Positions 43,215-54,949 of a stretch of DNA of 64,000 nt are shown piece after piece. Below the pieces are notes generated by a model that worked only from the letters and a program-made list of their open reading frames with translations, did not search any database and was not told where the DNA came from. A program made the translations under genes and the position numbers. This DNA is from a virus: positions 1 to 64,000 of the IMG/VR virus record IMGVR_UViG_3300032236_000195. One strand, 5' to 3'. The number at the start of each line of letters is the position of its first letter. Position 1 is the stretch's first letter.

Positions 43215-45104
43215 TTAACACTCCCCGTAGCTGTTTGCAACCTTTGCTTCGCAGGTAATCGGCAAATCTTTGCCCCAGTCCGGGGGAGTGGACATGCACT
43301 CCATGATATACGCGAGCGCCTCGTCCTTCTCGGCCTCTGGTACTACGCACACCGCCGCGTCATGCACAGTAAGCACGACACGATAGCGACGTTGAATAGC
43401 GAGCATCTGTTCGCCCACGACTATTCTTGCCAACGCTTGCACCACGTTCTCGACTATCGATCCACCCCACAGTGGGATCTCCCCTCGACGTGACTTGTAG
43501 ACATAGTGCGTCTTGCCCTCGTCCGTTTTTTTATTTAATTCTGGGTAACGAATGTACAACCCGTTGGGTAACCTGATGCCAGTTCTATCGACCTTGACCA
43601 CGCCATGCTCGCCATAGTCGAACGGCGAACTCTCATCTGACCACGTGTACAGACCTTCAAGCATCTTGTCGCCCTCGCGCCATAGGTCAACGATTTTCTT
43701 GTTCTTGTCCCGATAGATCTTGACGATGCGTTTGGATTCCTCGTCGTTGATCTTGACGCTGATGGGTTGTGCCGTGGCTAATGTGTGTTGCAGCTTTAGT
43801 GCGCCTGTACCATAGCCAAGACCTAGGATGCAGGTCTTACCAACAAACCGCTCCTCGGGGTTGGCCTTGGTGATTGGCATGTTGTAGACCTCGCTTGCGA
43901 AGATCGAGTACACATCCTCGCCCTTGGCGAATTGTTTTACTACATCATTCTGACCAGCCAGCCACGCAAGTATCCGCGCCTCAATCTGAGAAGAGTCACA
44001 GTTGACCACCACATGGTCATCGGGCGGACAGATAGCGTTCTTGAGCGTCTTCTTCTTTTTATCTCTTGACGGAAGGTTCTGGAAGTTTACCTTGTCCGTA
44101 CCCGACCATCGGCCTGTATGCGCCCCGTAGTATTTCAGAGGGATGGGGATGCGACCTCGGTTACGTTTGCCAACGTCAATGAATCTCTCAATCCTTGTCT
44201 CTTCAAGGGTAGACTTGGTTTCGAGCCTGACCGAGCACAACATCTGAACGTCCTCGCTCTCGTGCTCAAGTAGTGCAAGGAAACCCTCGTCCTTTTTAGC
44301 CAACGCATAGGTAGGCTTGCCCGTCGTTGGGCTTATCTTCATTGGCGGGTCGATGCCAAACATTGTCTTGAGGATTTCCGCGAACTGCTTGTTGCTATGC
44401 AACTTCTTCGGAACTTCCTTGTAATCGATTAACGTATCGTGTCCCCCAAGTGCAGCGTACACCTTGCCATACATGATGACTCTCTCATACGTGATCTCGG
44501 TCAATCTTTGCCCAAGCATCGCGTCATCCACGGTCAGCACAGGCTCCGTGAACATGCGGATCGTCATGTCAATCAGATCTAATTCTGATTGAGGAAAGTC
44601 TTTGGATAACTGACCCCACAGTTTGTAGGTCAGGTCTACGTCGTTCACGCAGTACCGCCCGTATTGTTCAAGTTCTTCTTTGGTGAAGTTTAGCCTACGC
44701 TTGCCCTCGGCAGCGACAACCTCGTCACCCTTGACCCCGATCCCATAGCGCAACGCTAGTGAGGCAAGCGAACCCCCAACGTCCACTCCGTGGATCGCCC
44801 GCGCCATGCACAACGTATCGCGCAACGCCTTGGGTTTTATGCCGTATACCCAACTGAGGATCGCGCCATCGAACAACATGTTGTGGCACAGGACTTCACT
44901 ATCGTCCCACGGTAGGGTGGATAGATATTTAGCGATCTCGTCCTTGGTTCCCGTGACCCATCGGGCCTCCCCCCCGTCAAACTTGACACCGACGCCAATT
45001 ACCTCAAAGCGTTTGTCGCGTATGTATTCCTCTGTTGTTTGGTGTTTGAACCCGAGTTTAATTTTCGAGTCGTAGAATGTCTCAAAGTCTAAAGTTATAA
45101 ACAT
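43215..45104 (-). CDS. Family A DNA polymerase with 3'-5' exonuclease (629 aa)
   Basis: ATG 45104 chosen because the upstream in-frame extension encodes a terminator. Exonuclease motifs: LDFETFYD (D6, E8), CHNMLFDGA and YCVNDVDLTYKLW. Polymerase: motif A VVNCDSSQIEARI (D370), motif B RFVGKTCILGLGYG (K423), motif C LTVHDAAVCV (H581, D582). In motif C the usual Glu after Asp is Ala, as seen in some phage polymerases. It is the replicative polymerase of this phage. It follows a terminator, so its expression may depend on read-through or a local promoter. Confidence 0.9.
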   Translation of the reverse strand: MFITLDFETFYDSKIKLGFKHQTTEEYIRDKRFEVIGVGVKFDGGEARWVTGTKDEIAKYLSTLPWDDSEVLCHNMLFDGAILSWVYGIKPKALRDTLCMARAIHGVDVGGSLASLALRYGIGVKGDEVVAAEGKRRLNFTKEELEQYGRYCVNDVDLTYKLWGQLSKDFPQSELDLIDMTIRMFTEPVLTVDDAMLGQRLTEITYERVIMYGKVYAALGGHDTLIDYKEVPKKLHSNKQFAEILKTMFGIDPPMKISPTTGKPTYALAKKDEGFLALLEHESEDVQMLCSVRLETKSTLEETRIERFIDVGKRNRGRIPIPLKYYGAHTGRWSGTDKVNFQNLPSRDKKKKTLKNAICPPDDHVVVNCDSSQIEARILAWLAGQNDVVKQFAKGEDVYSIFASEVYNMPITKANPEERFVGKTCILGLGYGTGALKLQHTLATAQPISVKINDEESKRIVKIYRDKNKKIVDLWREGDKMLEGLYTWSDESSPFDYGEHGVVKVDRTGIRLPNGLYIRYPELNKKTDEGKTHYVYKSRRGEIPLWGGSIVENVVQALARIVVGEQMLAIQRRYRVVLTVHDAAVCVVPEAEKDEALAYIMECMSTPPDWGKDLPITCEAKVANSYGEC

Positions 45105-45127
45105 TAGATAGCGGCTAGTACAGTCAC

Positions 45128-45159
45128 AAAAAAGGGGAGTACGGCAGAACCGCACCCCC
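45128..45159 (-). terminator. Rho-independent terminator on minus strand
   Basis: On the minus strand, G-rich arm, short TTCTG loop, complementary arm with one bulge and a T6 run. It lies between DUF3310 (stop at 45167) and the DNA polymerase start (45104). Confidence 0.8.
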
Positions 45160-45662: not shown

Positions 45663-45857
45663 TTATTCCCCTTCTGGAATGGGCGATTTAACGGACACAA
45701 TACCTTTGCCGGTACGTGCTTCTAACATGGAATCTGCTAACTCAAACGCAATGAGGGCAACATGATCTCGTCGAGAGACGTTTTTTGACGCTACTAAACC
45801 TAACATAGCCAACCCCGCATATAGATCTCGCAGAGACTCCAATTCTTTGTCATCCAT
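45663..45857 (-). CDS. Conserved small phage protein (64 aa)
   Basis: ATG 45857. The core LRDLYAGLAMLGLVASKNVS, then ALIAFELADSMLEARTG, is a short helical family frequent in phages (RDxxAxxAMxGLL pattern) with unknown role. It overlaps the VRR-NUC gene by 8 bp and is soluble. Confidence 0.65.
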   Translation of the reverse strand: MDDKELESLRDLYAGLAMLGLVASKNVSRRDHVALIAFELADSMLEARTGKGIVSVKSPIPEGE

Positions 45858-46158
45858 TACTTAACTCCTTCAACTCTCTAATTAGGTCTTTAAGGTAGAA
45901 GAGACTTTTGATCTCGTCGTTTACTACGATGGCACATCCACCGCTATCAACTATCTGCTTGAGGTTTTTAGTCTGCAAAGCAGTGGGTTTGTTTCCGTTT
46001 GCTTTTGCTTCTATCCCTAAAAAATAACCATGAACACAACACAAGAAGTCCGGTACACCTGAGTTACCGTACCCTGTACCTATTGGCATCGCGTAGTAGA
46101 TTTTCTCTTCTTGGAGAATTTCTTTTATCTTGGCTTTAACTTTCGCTTCGGGTGTCAC
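45850..46158 (-). CDS. VRR-NUC nuclease domain protein (102 aa)
   Basis: GTG start at 46158. The VRR-NUC pattern is clear: AMPIGTGYGNSGVPDFLCCV (D37), YFLGIEAKANGNKPTALQ (E50, K52, Q62). This PD-(D/E)XK subgroup acts on branched or flapped DNA, for example in FAN1 and phage stand-alone forms. It is probably a structure-specific nuclease of the replication/recombination module. Confidence 0.8.
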   Translation of the reverse strand: MTPEAKVKAKIKEILQEEKIYYAMPIGTGYGNSGVPDFLCCVHGYFLGIEAKANGNKPTALQTKNLKQIVDSGGCAIVVNDEIKSLFYLKDLIRELKELSNG

Positions 46159-46543
46159 CTTTCATTTCCTCTAAGTCTGACCTTGGTATAACAATACAAA
46201 AATAAGAATCCGACGCTTGCCAGCCAATGTCGTGTAAGTCTAATGGGCCATGATTCACATACAGTTCAGCCTTCAGAAGTTCTATATCTCTAACGATGAA
46301 TTGATAGCTGGCAAGAATCATAGCCATCCGCATCTTGATTGAATCGGGTAGTGTTTCGTCCGTGTAAGTTCGTGTGAAATTGTCACCCACATGCACCGTG
46401 TAAATTCCGTCCTCACGGTGCAGTGGAACCCTAATTAAAGTCCAGTTGGTTGAATGCACAACTGGACTAAGACCGTTAAATCTTACTGCCATGTAGACTT
46501 TGATAGTGAAGTCATTCAAAGACCAACCGGAACCATCATCCAT
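46136..46543 (-). CDS. Unknown protein (135 aa)
   Basis: ATG 46543, overlapping the end of the 317-aa gene by 28 bp. The sequence is beta-rich in the first half (FTIKVYMAVRFNGLSP, then WTLIRVPLHREDGIYTVHVG) with a helix SIKMRMAMILASYQFIVRDI in the middle. No catalytic pattern recognised. Position between the 317-aa gene and VRR-NUC suggests an early function; otherwise unknown. Confidence 0.5.
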   Translation of the reverse strand: MDDGSGWSLNDFTIKVYMAVRFNGLSPVVHSTNWTLIRVPLHREDGIYTVHVGDNFTRTYTDETLPDSIKMRMAMILASYQFIVRDIELLKAELYVNHGPLDLHDIGWQASDSYFCIVIPRSDLEEMKGDTRSES

Positions 46544-47469
46544 TGTTCGTGATACTCCGTGACGCTTGTTGGATAGTAAAGAGCGACATCTAAGTTAGAG
46601 TCGTACATGTCAGCCCTAGGCATAAACGGCGTGATCATCTGGTTACTTTTCCCCTCGTAAGCAACTTTTGCCATAGTTAAGATAGGAACCAAGTCCGTGA
46701 ATTCTCTATAGAGAGTTTCTTGGGTGACGCGACGGAACGATTGCACGATCTCGATCTGATACGGATCGCTACCGTTCTTAACTCGCTTGGCCTTACCCAC
46801 CATGCAGTGTCCACGCTTATCTGCCGCGATAAGATAGAACGGGTTCTCAAACATCCTCGTGATCTCTTTGTTCCTCTCAACCAGATTAGAATCGATCTCG
46901 TTGTATTTGTCAAGCGCAGTTTGACATTTAGTTCGGTCTACAAACAACGGCGCTCCGAGAAGAACAGCCTTTAACAGTTGATGGATCTCGTCACCGTCAA
47001 ACGGATCTGTAGATTTCCAGATCTTACCGAAGTGACCTTCTGCTTGACTCTTCAACCCGTCCACCGCTCGCCTGAGTTTGAAGACCGTTAGATCGGGTTT
47101 GATCGCATTACTCTTTTTCAGCGCACCCATCAGTGAAGATAGTTTGTGGCTAGTCCACGTGCAACGATGCTCATCAGATTTGCCACGTTCTTTACTCGCA
47201 TGAGGTGTGTAGTACGCATAGTGCGTTTTACCTTCCTCTTCCCACGCATACACGTGACCCTGCGCGAATCCATTCTTATCGACTAGATGGAAACTGTTGC
47301 ATTGATCTTCTGCGCCAACACGATGGTAGGCGCGTTTGTGATCCAACACCATCAAACCATAGTGATGATTTAACTCACGGATGAGTGGTAACACCATCGT
47401 GTCGTTGGTGAGTGCGGTGATGAGCGAGTCTGTAGCGAACTCGCCATAAATTAATTTATTAATAGACAT
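46516..47469 (-). CDS. Unknown protein downstream of the VWA gene (317 aa)
   Basis: ATG 47469 with AGGAA upstream. I do not recognise a domain. Residues about 20-60 contain a His-rich stretch (LIRELNHHYGLMVLDHKRAY), 90-130 a basic helix, and 160-215 a helical region before a beta-rich segment (YLIAADKRGHCMVGKAKRVK). It is 21 bp downstream of the VWA-metallopeptidase gene in the same direction, so it may be a fourth member or a client of that module. Confidence 0.55.
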   Translation of the reverse strand: MSINKLIYGEFATDSLITALTNDTMVLPLIRELNHHYGLMVLDHKRAYHRVGAEDQCNSFHLVDKNGFAQGHVYAWEEEGKTHYAYYTPHASKERGKSDEHRCTWTSHKLSSLMGALKKSNAIKPDLTVFKLRRAVDGLKSQAEGHFGKIWKSTDPFDGDEIHQLLKAVLLGAPLFVDRTKCQTALDKYNEIDSNLVERNKEITRMFENPFYLIAADKRGHCMVGKAKRVKNGSDPYQIEIVQSFRRVTQETLYREFTDLVPILTMAKVAYEGKSNQMITPFMPRADMYDSNLDVALYYPTSVTEYHEQWMMVPVGL

Positions 47470-47490: not shown

Positions 47491-48798
47491 TTAATCGTTG
47501 TTGATCATTACTTTCTTGCCCACCGGGGGGTGGAACGATGTATTCTCCGTCACCATCCAAAGAGTTGGCGGGATCACATCCCACACAAACGAAGACTCTA
47601 CGTAGCCATCTGTGAAAACAATCACACAGTCTGCGTTGATTCTTTCTTTGCCGATGTAGTCACTAACACACCCTACTCGAGTACCGCCGCCACCCACAGG
47701 CTTGAGCATCTTCGCCAATCCCATGTAGTTGCCCTCAAAGATCTGCTCGCCATGCACGTGCGTGTCCCACCACAGAACGCGAACCCGCTCCGGTTCACAC
47801 AAGTCACAAATAGATGCCAGTTCTGTTGCGAACCCCGTAAGAATGTCACCGCTGATAGATCCCGACGTATCGATGGCGACCACAACCTCACCCACGGTCT
47901 CGTTCTCGATGCTCGGCAAATAAAGATCATTGACCAACTGACGCTTGTTCAGCCGACGCCACGTGAATTCGTCCTTGCCACGGATCGATGATGAAACGAT
48001 GTCGCGCAGTGCGTCCTTCCAATCTACCTTTGGTGTAAGAAGATCACTGATAGCGCGTGGGATATTGCCACCCATCCGCCCAGCTAACATTCCACCCTCA
48101 CGTAGAGCCTTATCGATGGCGTCACCCATCTTCTTCACATCTTCGGGAGACATACCCTCGACCAACTTCTCAAAGTCATGCTCATCGAACCCACCGTCAG
48201 GGATCTCCTTCAACTCATTACCATTGATTTTTATTTTTCCTGACCCTTCGCCCTGACCATCTTCCGGCTCATCCCCTGAGCCACCGCCCGGAGCGGGATT
48301 CCCCTCGTCGCATGGCTTATCTCCCTTTCCACGTGGGGGTGGAGTGGGATTCTGCTTCTTCAAGTAATCCCATACCTGACGCATAGACCAGTCGTGGAAC
48401 ATCGAGTCATACAACGCACCGTCGGGCAACTCCACGATACGTTCCGACGTCGTACCGATTGTTCCAGTGATGTTATAGATGATGTCATTCACAACTAGAT
48501 CTGCTGCCACGTTCGCCAACTTCGCGTTCTCCTTGAAGAACTCGATGTGACGTGGCAACTGCTTGAGTGCTACGTGCAGGTTCTCGTGCAGGATCAAGCC
48601 CCGACGCTTTGCAGGGTTGGTGATCTTCTCTAAGAATTGGCGGCAATACTTTTTATTGACACCATCGGTGTACGCGGTGAAGTTACCATCCTCGACCGCG
48701 CTCTCTCCCATCAGCATGACACCTGCGTACAGTGCAGTCTGTGGGTGCTTCATCAGCGCGATGTGCGCTTGCTTCAACAAAGTCTCTTGACTAGACAT
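47491..48798 (-). CDS. VWA domain / metallopeptidase-like protein (435 aa)
   Basis: ATG 48798 behind AGAGGA. N-terminal half: metallopeptidase-like LILHENLHVAL with H71, E72 and H75, then ANVAADLVVND, as in the DUF2201/VWA-associated metallopeptidase family. Residues 150-185 are Pro/Gly/Glu-rich linker. C-terminal half: VWA-like domain with a MIDAS motif VVVAIDTSGSISGD (D310, S312, S314) and CVIVFTDGYVES. Such proteins partner with MoxR AAA+ ATPases; here the MoxR gene is immediately upstream. It may act as metal-dependent adaptor for the ATPase. Confidence 0.8.
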   Translation of the reverse strand: MSSQETLLKQAHIALMKHPQTALYAGVMLMGESAVEDGNFTAYTDGVNKKYCRQFLEKITNPAKRRGLILHENLHVALKQLPRHIEFFKENAKLANVAADLVVNDIIYNITGTIGTTSERIVELPDGALYDSMFHDWSMRQVWDYLKKQNPTPPPRGKGDKPCDEGNPAPGGGSGDEPEDGQGEGSGKIKINGNELKEIPDGGFDEHDFEKLVEGMSPEDVKKMGDAIDKALREGGMLAGRMGGNIPRAISDLLTPKVDWKDALRDIVSSSIRGKDEFTWRRLNKRQLVNDLYLPSIENETVGEVVVAIDTSGSISGDILTGFATELASICDLCEPERVRVLWWDTHVHGEQIFEGNYMGLAKMLKPVGGGGTRVGCVSDYIGKERINADCVIVFTDGYVESSFVWDVIPPTLWMVTENTSFHPPVGKKVMINND

Positions 48799-48854
48799 AC
48801 TATCCTCTACTTGATTAATTAACTTTCCACCCCACGGTGGACACTAACCCGATC

Positions 48855-48885
48855 GGGATTGAAAAGTACCGTACTTCTCAATCCC
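48855..48885. repeat. 31-bp inverted repeat between MoxR and VWA genes
   Basis: Arms 48855-48869 and 48871-48885 are complementary over 15 bp with one mismatch around a single central base; a palindrome CCCGATCGGG overlaps the left edge. No T tail follows on either strand. Could be an operator or an RNA-processing hairpin setting the MoxR:VWA ratio. Confidence 0.7.
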
Positions 48886-48898
48886 ATCATCGAACCAT

Positions 48899-50011
48899 TC
48901 ACAACAACTCGTGATTGTTCTTCGCCCACTCACCGATCTTCGCGTTGTTACGTGCGAGTTTGATCGCTCGTGGGTTACGCATCATCATGGTGAAGAACAC
49001 CGCTTGAACCTCGGACGAACGAATGCGCTCGACGAACTCCATGAATGAAGATAGTTCATCTTGAGTCGCAAGCATATCGACTGCTTGGAACATCATCATC
49101 AACTGCGCGGCAACGTCATCGGGAACCGGGACACCCTTGGGATCTTTGATAACGTCCTTCACGTCTATGAGATTCTTCTCCATGTCCAAGAACACCATCA
49201 TGTCCTTGGCAGCAGCGATACCGATAGTCCCGGCCATTGCCGCTTGCACGAAGTTTGGCTTCATCTGATCACGCTTACGCACGATCACATCGTTCTTCGT
49301 CAGTGAGCGCGGAGACACAAACGACAACACACCGCTTCCGGGTTTGAAGATGTATGGATTATCTTTTGTATGATCCCCTTCTCTGTACGATTGCAGGCAC
49401 TTCGGGTACATAGAAACCCACGCCCTCGTGACCCGAGAGATACCGTTGGCGCTCGCCCATGTCAACCACTCGTTTACGCTTGGCTTCGCCATCTCCACGA
49501 TAGTCACGCGATTACCTGCGTGAGCGAGCATCGTGTCACCGACACCATCTGACGCATTGTTGGATGTTGCAATAATCCACGATCCATCAGGCAGTGGCTC
49601 GTCACCGACCATACGCTCCAGCAGCATCCGGGTGAAGATCACCTGCAAGAGTTTCGGCGCTTTGTTCAACTCGTCGAGCATGATCACCTTCGGGCGGGGA
49701 TCTTTCAGATTGAACAACGACGCCACGTAATACATCAACTCCTTGGTGACATGATCAGGGATGGTCATGCCAATGTCCGACATGTCCTTGACCGGACAAT
49801 CTACGTAGATATAGTCACGACTATCGTCAGGGAAGTGCTGCCCTGCTTTGCGCCACTTGTCGCCGTTATCTTCAGCGAGCATCTTCAAGAGCGAACTCTT
49901 GCCACAACCCGGCTCGGACAGAACAACGACGGACACCTCGTCGCCAATGATGGGGATGTCGTGACGCAGATCATCAATGGTCACGGTGGAACGGAAATTA
50001 AGTGCAGCCAT
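48899..50011 (-). CDS. MoxR-family AAA+ ATPase (370 aa)
   Basis: ATG 50011 behind AAGGAG. Walker A SEPGCGKSS (K38), Walker B VIMLDELNKAP (D113, E114), sensor-1 WIIATSNNASD, and later VSPRSLTKND with a sensor-2 arginine candidate. The domain layout is that of MoxR/RavA-type ATPases, which remodel client proteins with a VWA partner. The genes on both sides (DUF3150-like and VWA) complete a set I recall from conjugative elements and some large phages. Its job in this phage is unknown. Confidence 0.85.
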   Translation of the reverse strand: MAALNFRSTVTIDDLRHDIPIIGDEVSVVVLSEPGCGKSSLLKMLAEDNGDKWRKAGQHFPDDSRDYIYVDCPVKDMSDIGMTIPDHVTKELMYYVASLFNLKDPRPKVIMLDELNKAPKLLQVIFTRMLLERMVGDEPLPDGSWIIATSNNASDGVGDTMLAHAGNRVTIVEMAKPSVNEWLTWASANGISRVTRAWVSMYPKCLQSYREGDHTKDNPYIFKPGSGVLSFVSPRSLTKNDVIVRKRDQMKPNFVQAAMAGTIGIAAAKDMMVFLDMEKNLIDVKDVIKDPKGVPVPDDVAAQLMMMFQAVDMLATQDELSSFMEFVERIRSSEVQAVFFTMMMRNPRAIKLARNNAKIGEWAKNNHELL

Positions 50012-50053
50012 TTTAAATACTCCTTGGTGATACTAAATTAGACTTGAATAAAC

Positions 50054-50959
50054 TTAAACGCAACTGAACGAACCAAACTTGCCGAGGATATCGTCAATAT
50101 CCCCCTTCACTTGCGAGCGCACCGCGTCAGAGTCACGGATCGTATCGGCAGATACTCCCTTGATCGCATCCTCTAACGCACTGCGCGCCGCTTCCAACTC
50201 TGCGTTACCCGTAAGATTAAAATCTTTGAAGGTCTCGCACATCTCACGCGCTTTCTCCAACGTGGACTCGTAGATCTTGCGCTTGCGGATCTTGGTCTCG
50301 CCTTTCTTATCGACAACCTCCTCCGTGTCGCAACAGTAAGAAATGCTCTTCATCACCTCAATGAACCGATCTTGCTGATCTTGAAGTATCGACGCTACGA
50401 TCTCTTCGGTCTGCTTGCTGTATGTGGCAAACAAATCATCAGCGATGTCCTGCGCGATCTGGCAACGGAAGTCATTCATCGGCACGTCGCTCACGAATAG
50501 ACGCATGTTGAACTTGCCACGAACTACCTCTTTGGTCGGGTAATCGTTACGGTCGAACATGTCGCCCTGCGTGAAAGCCATAGCCGTTACGATGTTGTCG
50601 TACTCCGCTATAAACGATTCCACGTGACCATCGAACGCTAACTTGTGCTCGTCATATTCTTTCTTAAATCGTTCCAACTCAACTTGTGGCAAGTATTGAT
50701 TGCCCTTGTTCCACTCGTAGGTGCGACGCTGAAGCCAGTTATATACGGTCTGGCGATAGTTGGAGATCGCCTTGTGCTTGGGATGATCGGCCAGCAAGTG
50801 CTGAGTGTACCGACCGGCAGCAGCAGATGCATTCTTAGATGAAGTCACCTCCTGACTGACTGCTTTGTTCTGCTTGGTCGCAGACCAGACGTTGATGTCC
50901 ACGCTGACCAACATACCGGACGATGCGAGGCTGATGAGATGCTTTGGTTTGTTCAACAT
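50054..50959 (-). CDS. DUF3150-like helical protein (301 aa)
   Basis: ATG 50959 behind AAGGA. The N-terminus MLVSVDINVWSATKQNKAVS (residues 16-35), then long helices YRQTVYNWLQRRTYEWNKGN and LERFKKEYDEHKLAF, a central conserved-looking RGKFNMRLFVSDVPMNDFRC, and a coiled-coil C-terminus. The pattern and its position upstream of MoxR and VWA fit DUF3150 proteins, which often accompany such pairs. Probably the structural or client-binding third partner. No enzymatic motif. Confidence on the family is moderate. Confidence 0.6.
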   Translation of the reverse strand: MLNKPKHLISLASSGMLVSVDINVWSATKQNKAVSQEVTSSKNASAAAGRYTQHLLADHPKHKAISNYRQTVYNWLQRRTYEWNKGNQYLPQVELERFKKEYDEHKLAFDGHVESFIAEYDNIVTAMAFTQGDMFDRNDYPTKEVVRGKFNMRLFVSDVPMNDFRCQIAQDIADDLFATYSKQTEEIVASILQDQQDRFIEVMKSISYCCDTEEVVDKKGETKIRKRKIYESTLEKAREMCETFKDFNLTGNAELEAARSALEDAIKGVSADTIRDSDAVRSQVKGDIDDILGKFGSFSCV

Positions 50960-50970
50960 GATGTTTCCTT

Positions 50971-50986
50971 TCCACGGGTACGTGGA
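50971..50986 (-). promoter_or_regulatory. Palindrome TCCACGggtaCGTGGA in leader of DUF3150/MoxR operon
   Basis: Six-base arms around four bases, directly before the ribosome site of the DUF3150-like gene. The same 16 bp occurs at 53275-53290, and a close variant at 53932-53947. Likely an operator or RNA leader hairpin. Confidence 0.65.
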
Positions 50987-51052
50987 TCATTAGTTAAAGA
51001 CACAGACTACGAAACAATCCTGACGCGCTGGCAAGTCGCCTTGCCTACTGAC

Positions 51053-51081
51053 AGTATACTACAACTGTACATATGGTACAA
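51053..51081 (-). promoter_or_regulatory. Sigma-70-like promoter for the DUF3150-MoxR-VWA operon
   Basis: On the minus strand: -35 TTGTAC (51081-51076), 17-bp spacer, -10 TATACT (51058-51053). A transcript would start near 51046 and include an about 85-base leader with the palindrome at 50971-50986. Confidence 0.65.
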
Positions 51082-53274: not shown

Positions 53275-53290
53275 TCCACGGGTACGTGGA
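53275..53290 (-). promoter_or_regulatory. Palindrome TCCACGggtaCGTGGA, second copy
   Basis: Identical to 50971-50986 and located 19 bp before the start codon at 53256, in the same place relative to its gene. Confidence 0.65.
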
Positions 53291-53356
53291 TTGTTAGTTA
53301 ACGATCTAGGTCACTGCGTTAGGCTGCGGCGTTGAGAACTTGCCTTGCCTATTGAC

Positions 53357-53385
53357 AGTATAACACAACTTGACATATACACACA
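53357..53385 (-). promoter_or_regulatory. Promoter-like element for the small-gene operon
   Basis: Minus strand: -10 TATACT (53362-53357) with an extended TGT just before it; the -35 position (TGTGTG) is poor. The surrounding bases match the promoter at 51053-51081 over about 50 bp, supporting function. Confidence 0.5.
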
Positions 53386-53931: not shown

Positions 53932-54019
53932 TCCACGGGGACGTGGATCGTTAATTAACGGTCTTGCCCACGCCAGACCACGCGCCCTACGCGCGCGCGA
54001 CCACAAAGAACTGGCATCA
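53932..54019. repeat. Intergenic repeat unit R1
   Basis: Begins TCCACGGGG (here extended to the palindrome ending GTGGA, followed by TTAATTAACG) and ends ACAAAGAACTGGCATCA. Units R2 (54869-54949) and R3 (55554-55633) share both ends and similar length. Confidence 0.65.
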
Positions 54020-54868: not shown

Positions 54869-54949
54869 TCCACGGGGGGGTGGGCCGTTATATAGCGCGC
54901 TTGCCCGCGCCCGCGATGCACGCACGCGACGACAAATAACTGGTATCAA
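54869..54949. repeat. Intergenic repeat unit R2
   Basis: 81 bp from TCCACGGGGGG to ACAAATAACTGGTATCAA; the middle is alternating G/C. Same boundaries as R1 and R3. Confidence 0.65.

Follow-up and report, generated by a model that had tools for sequence, protein, structure and literature searches.

A phage gene trio encoding DUF3150-like, AAA+ and VWA proteins: a possible remodeller of replication and recombination complexes

An uncultured phage carries three adjoining minus-strand genes within positions 47491-51081 of the 64-kb window, the whole stretch of DNA analyzed here (positions 1-64,000 of record IMGVR_UViG_3300032236_000195). They encode a DUF3150-like helical protein (hel), a MoxR/midasin-type AAA+ ATPase, and a protein combining a metallopeptidase-like domain with a VWA domain. 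We infer, with somewhat less than even confidence, that the three would form an ATP-driven, three-subunit remodeller of the element's own DNA-replication and recombination protein complexes. The presence of three adjacent genes on this strand, described in an earlier sequence-only reading, was borne out by ORF calls and profiles, which identified all three as genuine genes (Table 1). Profile searches recovered the order DUF3150-like/AAA/VWA in 69 of 69 complete phage-relative loci, drawn from about 63 contigs, and a reordered set on Burkholderiaceae plasmids and others; blastn of the trio against phages returned zero matches. The dN/dS values for the trio (0.07-0.13) indicate purifying selection. 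Given this selection and the constant gene order, the trio is not a chance assembly.

Table 1. Features of the trio and its surroundings, in window coordinates
Feature	Position	Strand	Details
DUF3150-like helical protein hel, first trio gene	50054..50959	-	301 aa; with homologues across 69 complete trio loci as well as plasmids
Signature LVSVDINVWSATKQN within hel	50867..50911	-	aligns with LLICHIDCSIWSGRK of true DUF3150
MoxR/midasin-type AAA+ ATPase	48899..50011	-	370 aa; PHROG_1297, E 1e-49
P-loop (Walker A) SEPGCGKS	49895..49918	-	motif, homologue alignment
Walker B VIMLDE	49670..49687	-	D113 in 68/68 homologues; position 114 holds E in 60 of them, D in 8
Metallopeptidase-like + VWA protein (DUF2201_N + DUF2201)	47491..48798	-	435 aa; PHROG_1314, E 4e-74
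HENLH zinc-binding-like motif (H71, E72, H75)	48574..48588	-	
MIDAS core DTSGS (D310-T-S312-G-S314)	47857..47871	-	with T373 and D397
Promoter-like box ATATGTACAGTTGTAGTATACTGTCA upstream of trio	51049..51074	-	-10 TATACT at 51053-51058
Hairpin TCCACG-NNNN-CGTGGA	50971..50986	-	directly upstream of the first gene's ribosome-binding site
Hairpin of the same type, VWA gene leader	48826..48841	-	
15-bp stem, AAA-VWA gap	48854..48886	-	107-nt region fold z -4.2
VRR-NUC/Hjc-like nuclease gene	45850..46158	-	syntenic with trio; with VWA in 62 relative loci
DNA polymerase I-type gene	43215..45155	-	syntenic neighbour of trio

Profile and model comparisons identify hel as a predicted remote relative of DUF3150 that lies outside the Pfam family proper. 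As a single sequence, it scored 9.8 bits (E 0.6) against Pfam DUF3150 (PF11348), below the 24.9-bit gathering cut-off. Of 22 aligned members, 7 matched this profile with E no higher than 1 (3.5e-4 at best). The PF11348 profile had no hit in any of 14 control genomes. Profile-profile comparison using hhalign placed hel near DUF3150 with scores of 51-67, whereas shuffles never exceeded 25. In BFVD, the viral fold that matched hel best carries a DUF3150 annotation (E 3.5e-17). The remote link emerges only from profile-profile and fold comparison; the earlier label "DUF3150-like" stands for distant kinship and not for Pfam membership. The AlphaFold model of hel was modest (pLDDT 77), and a Foldseek search of the PDB with it gave nothing at E under 0.001. 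Its VIA-align hits, the best of which had Z 9.7 and rmsd 2.7 over 90 residues, fell on the C-terminal bundle at the level common to helical bundles and were set aside. Hits to Isd linker, IsdB, Phage_scaffold, EruA, and mads_8 were dismissed as chance or as confined to the P-loop.

The second protein was in essence correctly read as a MoxR AAA+ ATPase with intact Walker motifs. G37, K38, D113, the sensor 1 residue N151, and arginines R168 and R235 were retained in all 68 homologues. In the P-loop, serine replaces the first glycine of GxxxxGK[ST], a variant shared by 47 of the 68. Midasin was the best PDB sequence match (E 2e-35, profile search). Against Pfam AAA_5, the window ATPase scored 14.2 bits (cut-off 22) and a plasmid homologue 35.2 bits.

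Both halves of the third protein exceeded their Pfam cut-offs (DUF2201_N, 71 vs 23.2 bits, E 1.6e-19; DUF2201, 54.3 vs 26.4 bits, E 1.9e-14). The combination of an HENLH metallopeptidase-like motif and a MIDAS was also confirmed, with all five MIDAS residues present in 75 of 75 VWA homologues and HExxH in 73. HENLH is followed by N96, A98, and D100, of which N96 and D100 are invariant, making D100 a candidate third ligand. As the HE of HExxH is missing from two closely related Variovorax proteins, the putative peptidase activity is not general. The AlphaFold model was poor overall (pLDDT 65, pTM 0.46). Fold matches covered the VWA part only (best Z 13.2, rmsd 2.7, 134 residues), and the best of them was the MIDAS of midasin in complex with a UBL. 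The PHROG_1314 label "HNH endonuclease" was rejected, as the match runs full length over DUF2201_N and VWA.

A promoter upstream of the trio near 51053-51081, putatively shared by the three genes, is likely, since its -10 (TATACT/TATAAT) and flanks are conserved among relatives and the 26-nt box containing the -10 recurs once more (53353-53378; 0 expected). Support for this earlier claim did not extend to the -35, which is not conserved, or to a generic sigma-70 scan, whose output lacked 51053-51081. The 15-bp stem in the AAA-VWA gap is without a T run and is missing in some relatives.

Genomic neighborhoods gave indirect evidence for the proposed function. In this clade, the trio sits in a replication block by VRR-NUC, DUF3310, and DNA polymerase genes, with structural genes on the opposite strand. 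The same three families were present on six plasmids viewed, in the order AAA-hel-VWA; PRTRC genes adjoin four of these trios and type IV secretion genes two, and no virion gene was listed in the stretches viewed. In another copy, the neighboring genes encode a DnaN-like clamp together with a Toprim primase. Searching with a single plasmid protein gave Variovorax matches only. True DUF3150 genes accompany a CbbQ-type AAA and a CobT-like VWA with HExxH and MIDAS, and their loci adjoin RecT and YqaJ, or SSB, Bet, and Exo (IncC plasmid pP91278). The phage VWA profile matched these loci weakly (E 0.018), their HExxH and MIDAS being found by motif, and comparison of VWA with the CobT profile was moderate (prob 71%). 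Because plasmid counterparts adjoin replication, recombination, or transfer genes, the set is probably a remodeller engaged in mobile-element DNA work, not merely an aid to virion assembly. Among the roles offered by the sequence-only reading, neighborhoods favor remodelling of replication and recombination complexes over virion maturation, while neutralization of defences found no direct support.

For the related phage pair, in which MoxR accompanies a metallopeptidase-vWA fusion, Iyer et al. (2021) explicitly proposed virion assembly (PMC7824862), although no experiment for this role was found in the text of that paper. Applied to the trio, it would mean an assembly chaperone coupled to proteolytic maturation of structural proteins, as for the jumbo-phage pair. 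The ATV p618/p892 MoxR-VWA pair works in tail development (cited in PMC7824862), roseophage RPP1 encodes some of its virion proteins close to its gp24/25 homologues (PMC4193335), and in jumbo phage GAP32 the pair comes directly after structural genes and is followed by DprA and thymidylate synthase genes. However, the trio of this clade lies in the replication block on the strand opposite the structural genes, and N4 gp24/25 are middle rather than late genes (PMC4193335). Since similar sets, such as the plasmid trios, occur with no virion gene listed nearby, the proposal is challenged for the phage pair, and we consider it unlikely here.

The mechanism proposed for the trio as a replication and recombination remodeller has a precedent in the CbbQ motor and CbbO VWA adaptor (PMC4660213). 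The AAA+ protein would be the ring-forming motor. The VWA protein would act as adaptor, its MIDAS metal holding an acidic side chain of the client, while its N-terminal HExxH domain could either clip the client or be a structural relic. The DUF3150-like protein would be a dedicated third subunit connecting the motor to the client or to machinery on the DNA side. Powered by ATP hydrolysis, the complex would strip or reshape the client.

Another reading with family precedent (PMC4660213) is that the trio would mature or activate a single specific enzyme, either a metalloenzyme or one of nucleotide metabolism, in the manner of CbbQO, CobST, or MoxR/CoxD. In N4, a dCTP deaminase comes after gp25, and one DUF3150 gene on a plasmid carries the annotation "cobalamin biosynthesis protein". 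No metabolic enzyme is common to the trio loci across phages and plasmids, however, making this a slim prospect. A counter-defence or takeover device, dismantling host defence or transcription complexes, would fit the non-structural location of the trio and its carriage by several kinds of mobile element, and bacterial conflict systems include MoxR-vWA pairs with a variable third component (PMC7159879). Yet PADLOC defence models gave no match beyond a weak, rejected hit to mads_8 over the P-loop stretch (E 0.005), hel had no VMAP match in Pfam up to E 1, and effector domains were absent. The trio is moreover present as one conserved copy, is under strong purifying selection, and is tied to replication genes rather than to variable islands. 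We regard this device as improbable.

These or related genes occur in N4-like phages and in more than a thousand listed plasmids, mostly conjugative, where their annotations include "HNH endonuclease", "cobalamin biosynthesis", and "hypothetical". Finding the same three-part set by replication, recombination, or transfer genes in phages and plasmids frames one testable question: what gets remodelled? A broader and doubtful extension of the remodeller proposal is that a single ancient three-subunit machine (motor, HExxH-MIDAS adaptor, and DUF3150-family subunit) is common to phages, IncC/SXT-type conjugative elements, and PRTRC plasmids and would remodel or clear the recombination and replication complexes of the element on DNA. 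If true, such remodellers of mobile-element DNA transactions would form a class so far unrecognized. By analogy to the midasin MIDAS gripping a UBL, the PRTRC-plasmid machine may act on ubiquitin-like-tagged clients.

The role of such genes in phages had been called essentially undescribed. This overstates the case for the AAA-VWA pair, already known from Iyer et al. and as N4 gp24/gp25, which are N4-like core genes (PMC4193335, PMC7650795). It is reasonable for the three-gene form: in the literature searched, the term DUF3150 was not found, nor was any description of the three-part phage form and its conjugative-element parallel, or of a function for the PRTRC-plasmid trio.

The ATPase and VWA protein, including its N-terminal metallopeptidase-like domain, are homologous to the jumbo-phage/N4 gp24/gp25 pair; profiles built from this clade alone matched the pair of the N4-like-sized phage SABI at 77 and 204 bits. 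In the window clade, the DUF3150-like gene always precedes the pair, whereas hel was not found, at the thresholds used, in loci of N4 (first 36 kb), KPP25 (32 kb), a Rhizobium phage (26 kb), phiFa, or phage G. Tunturi_3 has a hel relative with no detectable partners. As pair and hel each occur apart, the trio is not universal.

All three proteins have homologues in the trio of PRTRC and related plasmids (Cupriavidus, Paraburkholderia, Robbsia, Rhodovastum, and Variovorax; hel 179-326 bits), which differs in its AAA-hel-VWA order and in its PRTRC, type IV secretion, or replication neighbors. The IncC/SXT-like set of DUF3150, CbbQ-type AAA, and CobT-like VWA is likewise three-part, with HExxH and MIDAS in its VWA and a remote relative as third protein. 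Its AAA and VWA fall into Pfam families other than those of the phage proteins, and its genes are ordered differently; in pP91278, the AAA gene and DUF3150 have a hypothetical gene plus ssb, bet, and exo between them. The carriers of this set are conjugative elements rather than phages. For deletions of s067, s068, and s070, which gene order probably places in this set, Wozniak 2009 (PMC2791158) reported that transfer fell 10-fold at most. Midasin/Rea1 and CbbQO also pair an AAA ring with a VWA/MIDAS that grips the client, and midasin is the best PDB match for both parts. No DUF3150-like subunit is known in either, no homology is known for the part of CbbO that precedes its VWA (PMC4660213), and midasin is a single giant fused protein acting on pre-ribosomes. 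VMAP ternary conflict systems (PMC7159879) likewise join MoxR and vWA to a third component, but here the third component is not VMAP, effector domains are absent, and the set is found in mobile elements.

The parent IMG/VR virus record comprises 64,646 bases, of which the window covers bases 1-64000. Structural genes (terminase, portal, and virion proteins) lie on the plus strand, and the minus strand carries primase/helicase, helicase, exonuclease, DNA polymerase, DUF3310, and VRR-NUC-like genes. The trio occupies the upstream side of this minus-strand replication block, and its three ORFs were recovered where the sequence-only reading had placed them (see table). The VWA protein scored above the Pfam cut-offs for both DUF2201_N and DUF2201, bearing out its proposed metallopeptidase-like/VWA identity. 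Catalytic and MIDAS residues proved invariant or nearly invariant across 68 (ATPase) and 75 (VWA) distinct homologues. Each gene had a dN/dS of 0.07-0.13 against close relatives, indicating that all three are genes under selection. HExxH was lost in two closely related Variovorax VWA proteins, so catalysis at this site is possible but by no means certain.

The ATPase belonged to PHROG_1297 and the VWA protein to PHROG_1314. The 'HNH endonuclease' label of PHROG_1314 was misleading, as the actual domains are DUF2201_N and DUF2201. Metallopeptidase-VWA genes of many phages are annotated 'HNH endonuclease', apparently after this label.

Features of the trio region and repeated elements
Feature	Positions	Strand	Detail
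DUF3150-like helical protein	50054-50959	minus	301 aa
MoxR/midasin-type AAA+ ATPase	48899-50011	minus	370 aa
Metallopeptidase-like VWA protein	47491-48798	minus	435 aa
Conserved gene between VWA and VRR-NUC	46516-47469	minus	317 aa
Conserved gene between VWA and VRR-NUC	46136-46543	minus	135 aa
Promoter-like box ATATGTNNAGTTGTNNTATAMTGTCA	51049-51074, 53353-53378	minus	2 copies, 0 expected by chance
Small hairpin TCCAC[G/C]NNNN[C/G]GTGGA	50971-50986, 48826-48841, 53275-53290, 53932-53947, 54869-54884	minus	

The first protein had been called DUF3150-like, and this held as a remote relationship but not as membership of PF11348. As a single sequence it matched Pfam DUF3150 at E 0.6; 7 of 22 aligned family members matched at E up to 1, the best (3.5e-4) still below the cut-off. 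Genuine PF11348 genes were then taken from 398 bacterial genomes (match in 9) and aligned. Profile-profile comparison with three alignments of the first protein gave scores of 55.6, 66.8, and 51.3, against at most 25.1, 16.8, and 23.4 for column-shuffled controls and 16-18 for reversed profiles. The best viral fold match of its AlphaFold model (pLDDT 77, pTM 0.49) was a protein annotated DUF3150 (E 3.5e-17), with seven further viral matches at E under 1e-6. Both families share the signature LVSVDxNVWSATK / LLICHIDCSIWSGRK. A lone DUF3150-like relative, gp96 of Tunturiibacter phage Tunturi_3 (L001:5926-6882), is annotated 'HNH endonuclease'; no AAA or VWA partner was detected for it in that genome.

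Scanning viral contigs twice, with the first protein and with the VWA protein, yielded 83 loci. All 69 loci holding the three genes (~63 contigs) had them on one strand in the order DUF3150-like, AAA, VWA, at 39% to 97% identity to the window. The remaining 14 lacked one or two genes because, as far as could be judged, the contig ends there. A VRR-NUC gene accompanied the VWA gene at 62 loci, and a DNA polymerase gene did so at 33. The 317- and 135-aa genes, retained alongside the trio in many relatives, had no significant family match.

Co-transcription of the trio is plausible. A 26-nt box around a -10 TATACT lies upstream; its -10 was conserved in seven relatives, its -35 was not. Both copies of the box probably act as phage promoters whose -35 is poor. 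Three hairpin copies sit just upstream of ribosome-binding sites, those of trio genes 1 and 3 and of another early gene. A relaxed pattern occurred 11 times in 36-56 kb versus 1.8 expected, and a relative (L009) carried a compensatory pair change, TCCATCGTCAGATGGA. The repeat is possibly an RNA operator or leader-stabilising element.

Beyond phages, tblastn with the VWA protein matched 45 plasmids. The six inspected had the order AAA, DUF3150-like, VWA, unlike that in phages, so linkage survived rearrangement; their unlabelled middle protein was a homologue of the first protein (four left out of the profile scored 179-245 bits). PRTRC genes, whose products include a ThiF-like E1 alongside further proteins resembling ubiquitin-pathway components, adjoined four (Cupriavidus sp., C. 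taiwanensis, Paraburkholderia, and Robbsia; loci L119, L120, L122, and L123), an adjacency that may reflect a functional link. A type IV secretion operon adjoined the Paraburkholderia and Robbsia trios. A bacterial-genome copy adjoined a DnaN-like clamp and Toprim primase.

True DUF3150 genes were likewise accompanied by a CbbQ_C-type AAA and a CobT-like VWA, with RecT and YqaJ nearby. IncC plasmid pP91278 has the order AAA, hypothetical, ssb, bet, exo, DUF3150, VWA. A DUF3150 relative occurred in 1168 plasmid records, 978 of them conjugative. All five CobT-like partners examined combined a MIDAS with an HExxH at about residue 60-71, an adaptor architecture resembling that of the phage VWA protein. 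In SXT, the operon from s089 onward encodes a SetCD-activated, RecA-independent recombination system (PMC4344509), and deleting bet, exo, s067, s068, or s070 lowers transfer at most 10-fold (PMC2791158). From gene order, we infer that s067-s070 belong to the DUF3150/AAA/VWA set.

A MoxR-vWA pair in which a metallopeptidase is fused to the vWA was reported from phages by Iyer et al. 2021, who drew on the ATV p618/p892 pair to propose a role in virion assembly with peptidolytic processing (PMC7824862). Structural genes do precede the pair in jumbo phage GAP32. This role is weakened by the trio's place in the replication block, by the middle timing of the N4 pair gp24/gp25, which are N4-like phage core genes (PMC4193335, PMC7650795), and by the plasmid copies, since no virion gene is listed in the stretches viewed around the six trios. 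The term DUF3150 was absent from the literature searched, which excluded most subscription papers, and the three-part form thus seems undescribed there.

We favour a midasin/CbbQO-like remodeller, given that the top PDB profile match of the AAA protein was midasin (E 2e-35) and the top fold match of the VWA part was the midasin MIDAS complexed with UBL (E 6e-5), a part that many other VWA domains fit about equally well. CbbQO supplies the general mechanism: its AAA+ protein serves as motor, while the VWA adaptor engages an acidic residue on the client through its MIDAS (PMC4660213). The trio would work in a comparable way on behalf of the element's DNA machinery, and the DUF3150-like protein would be its third subunit.
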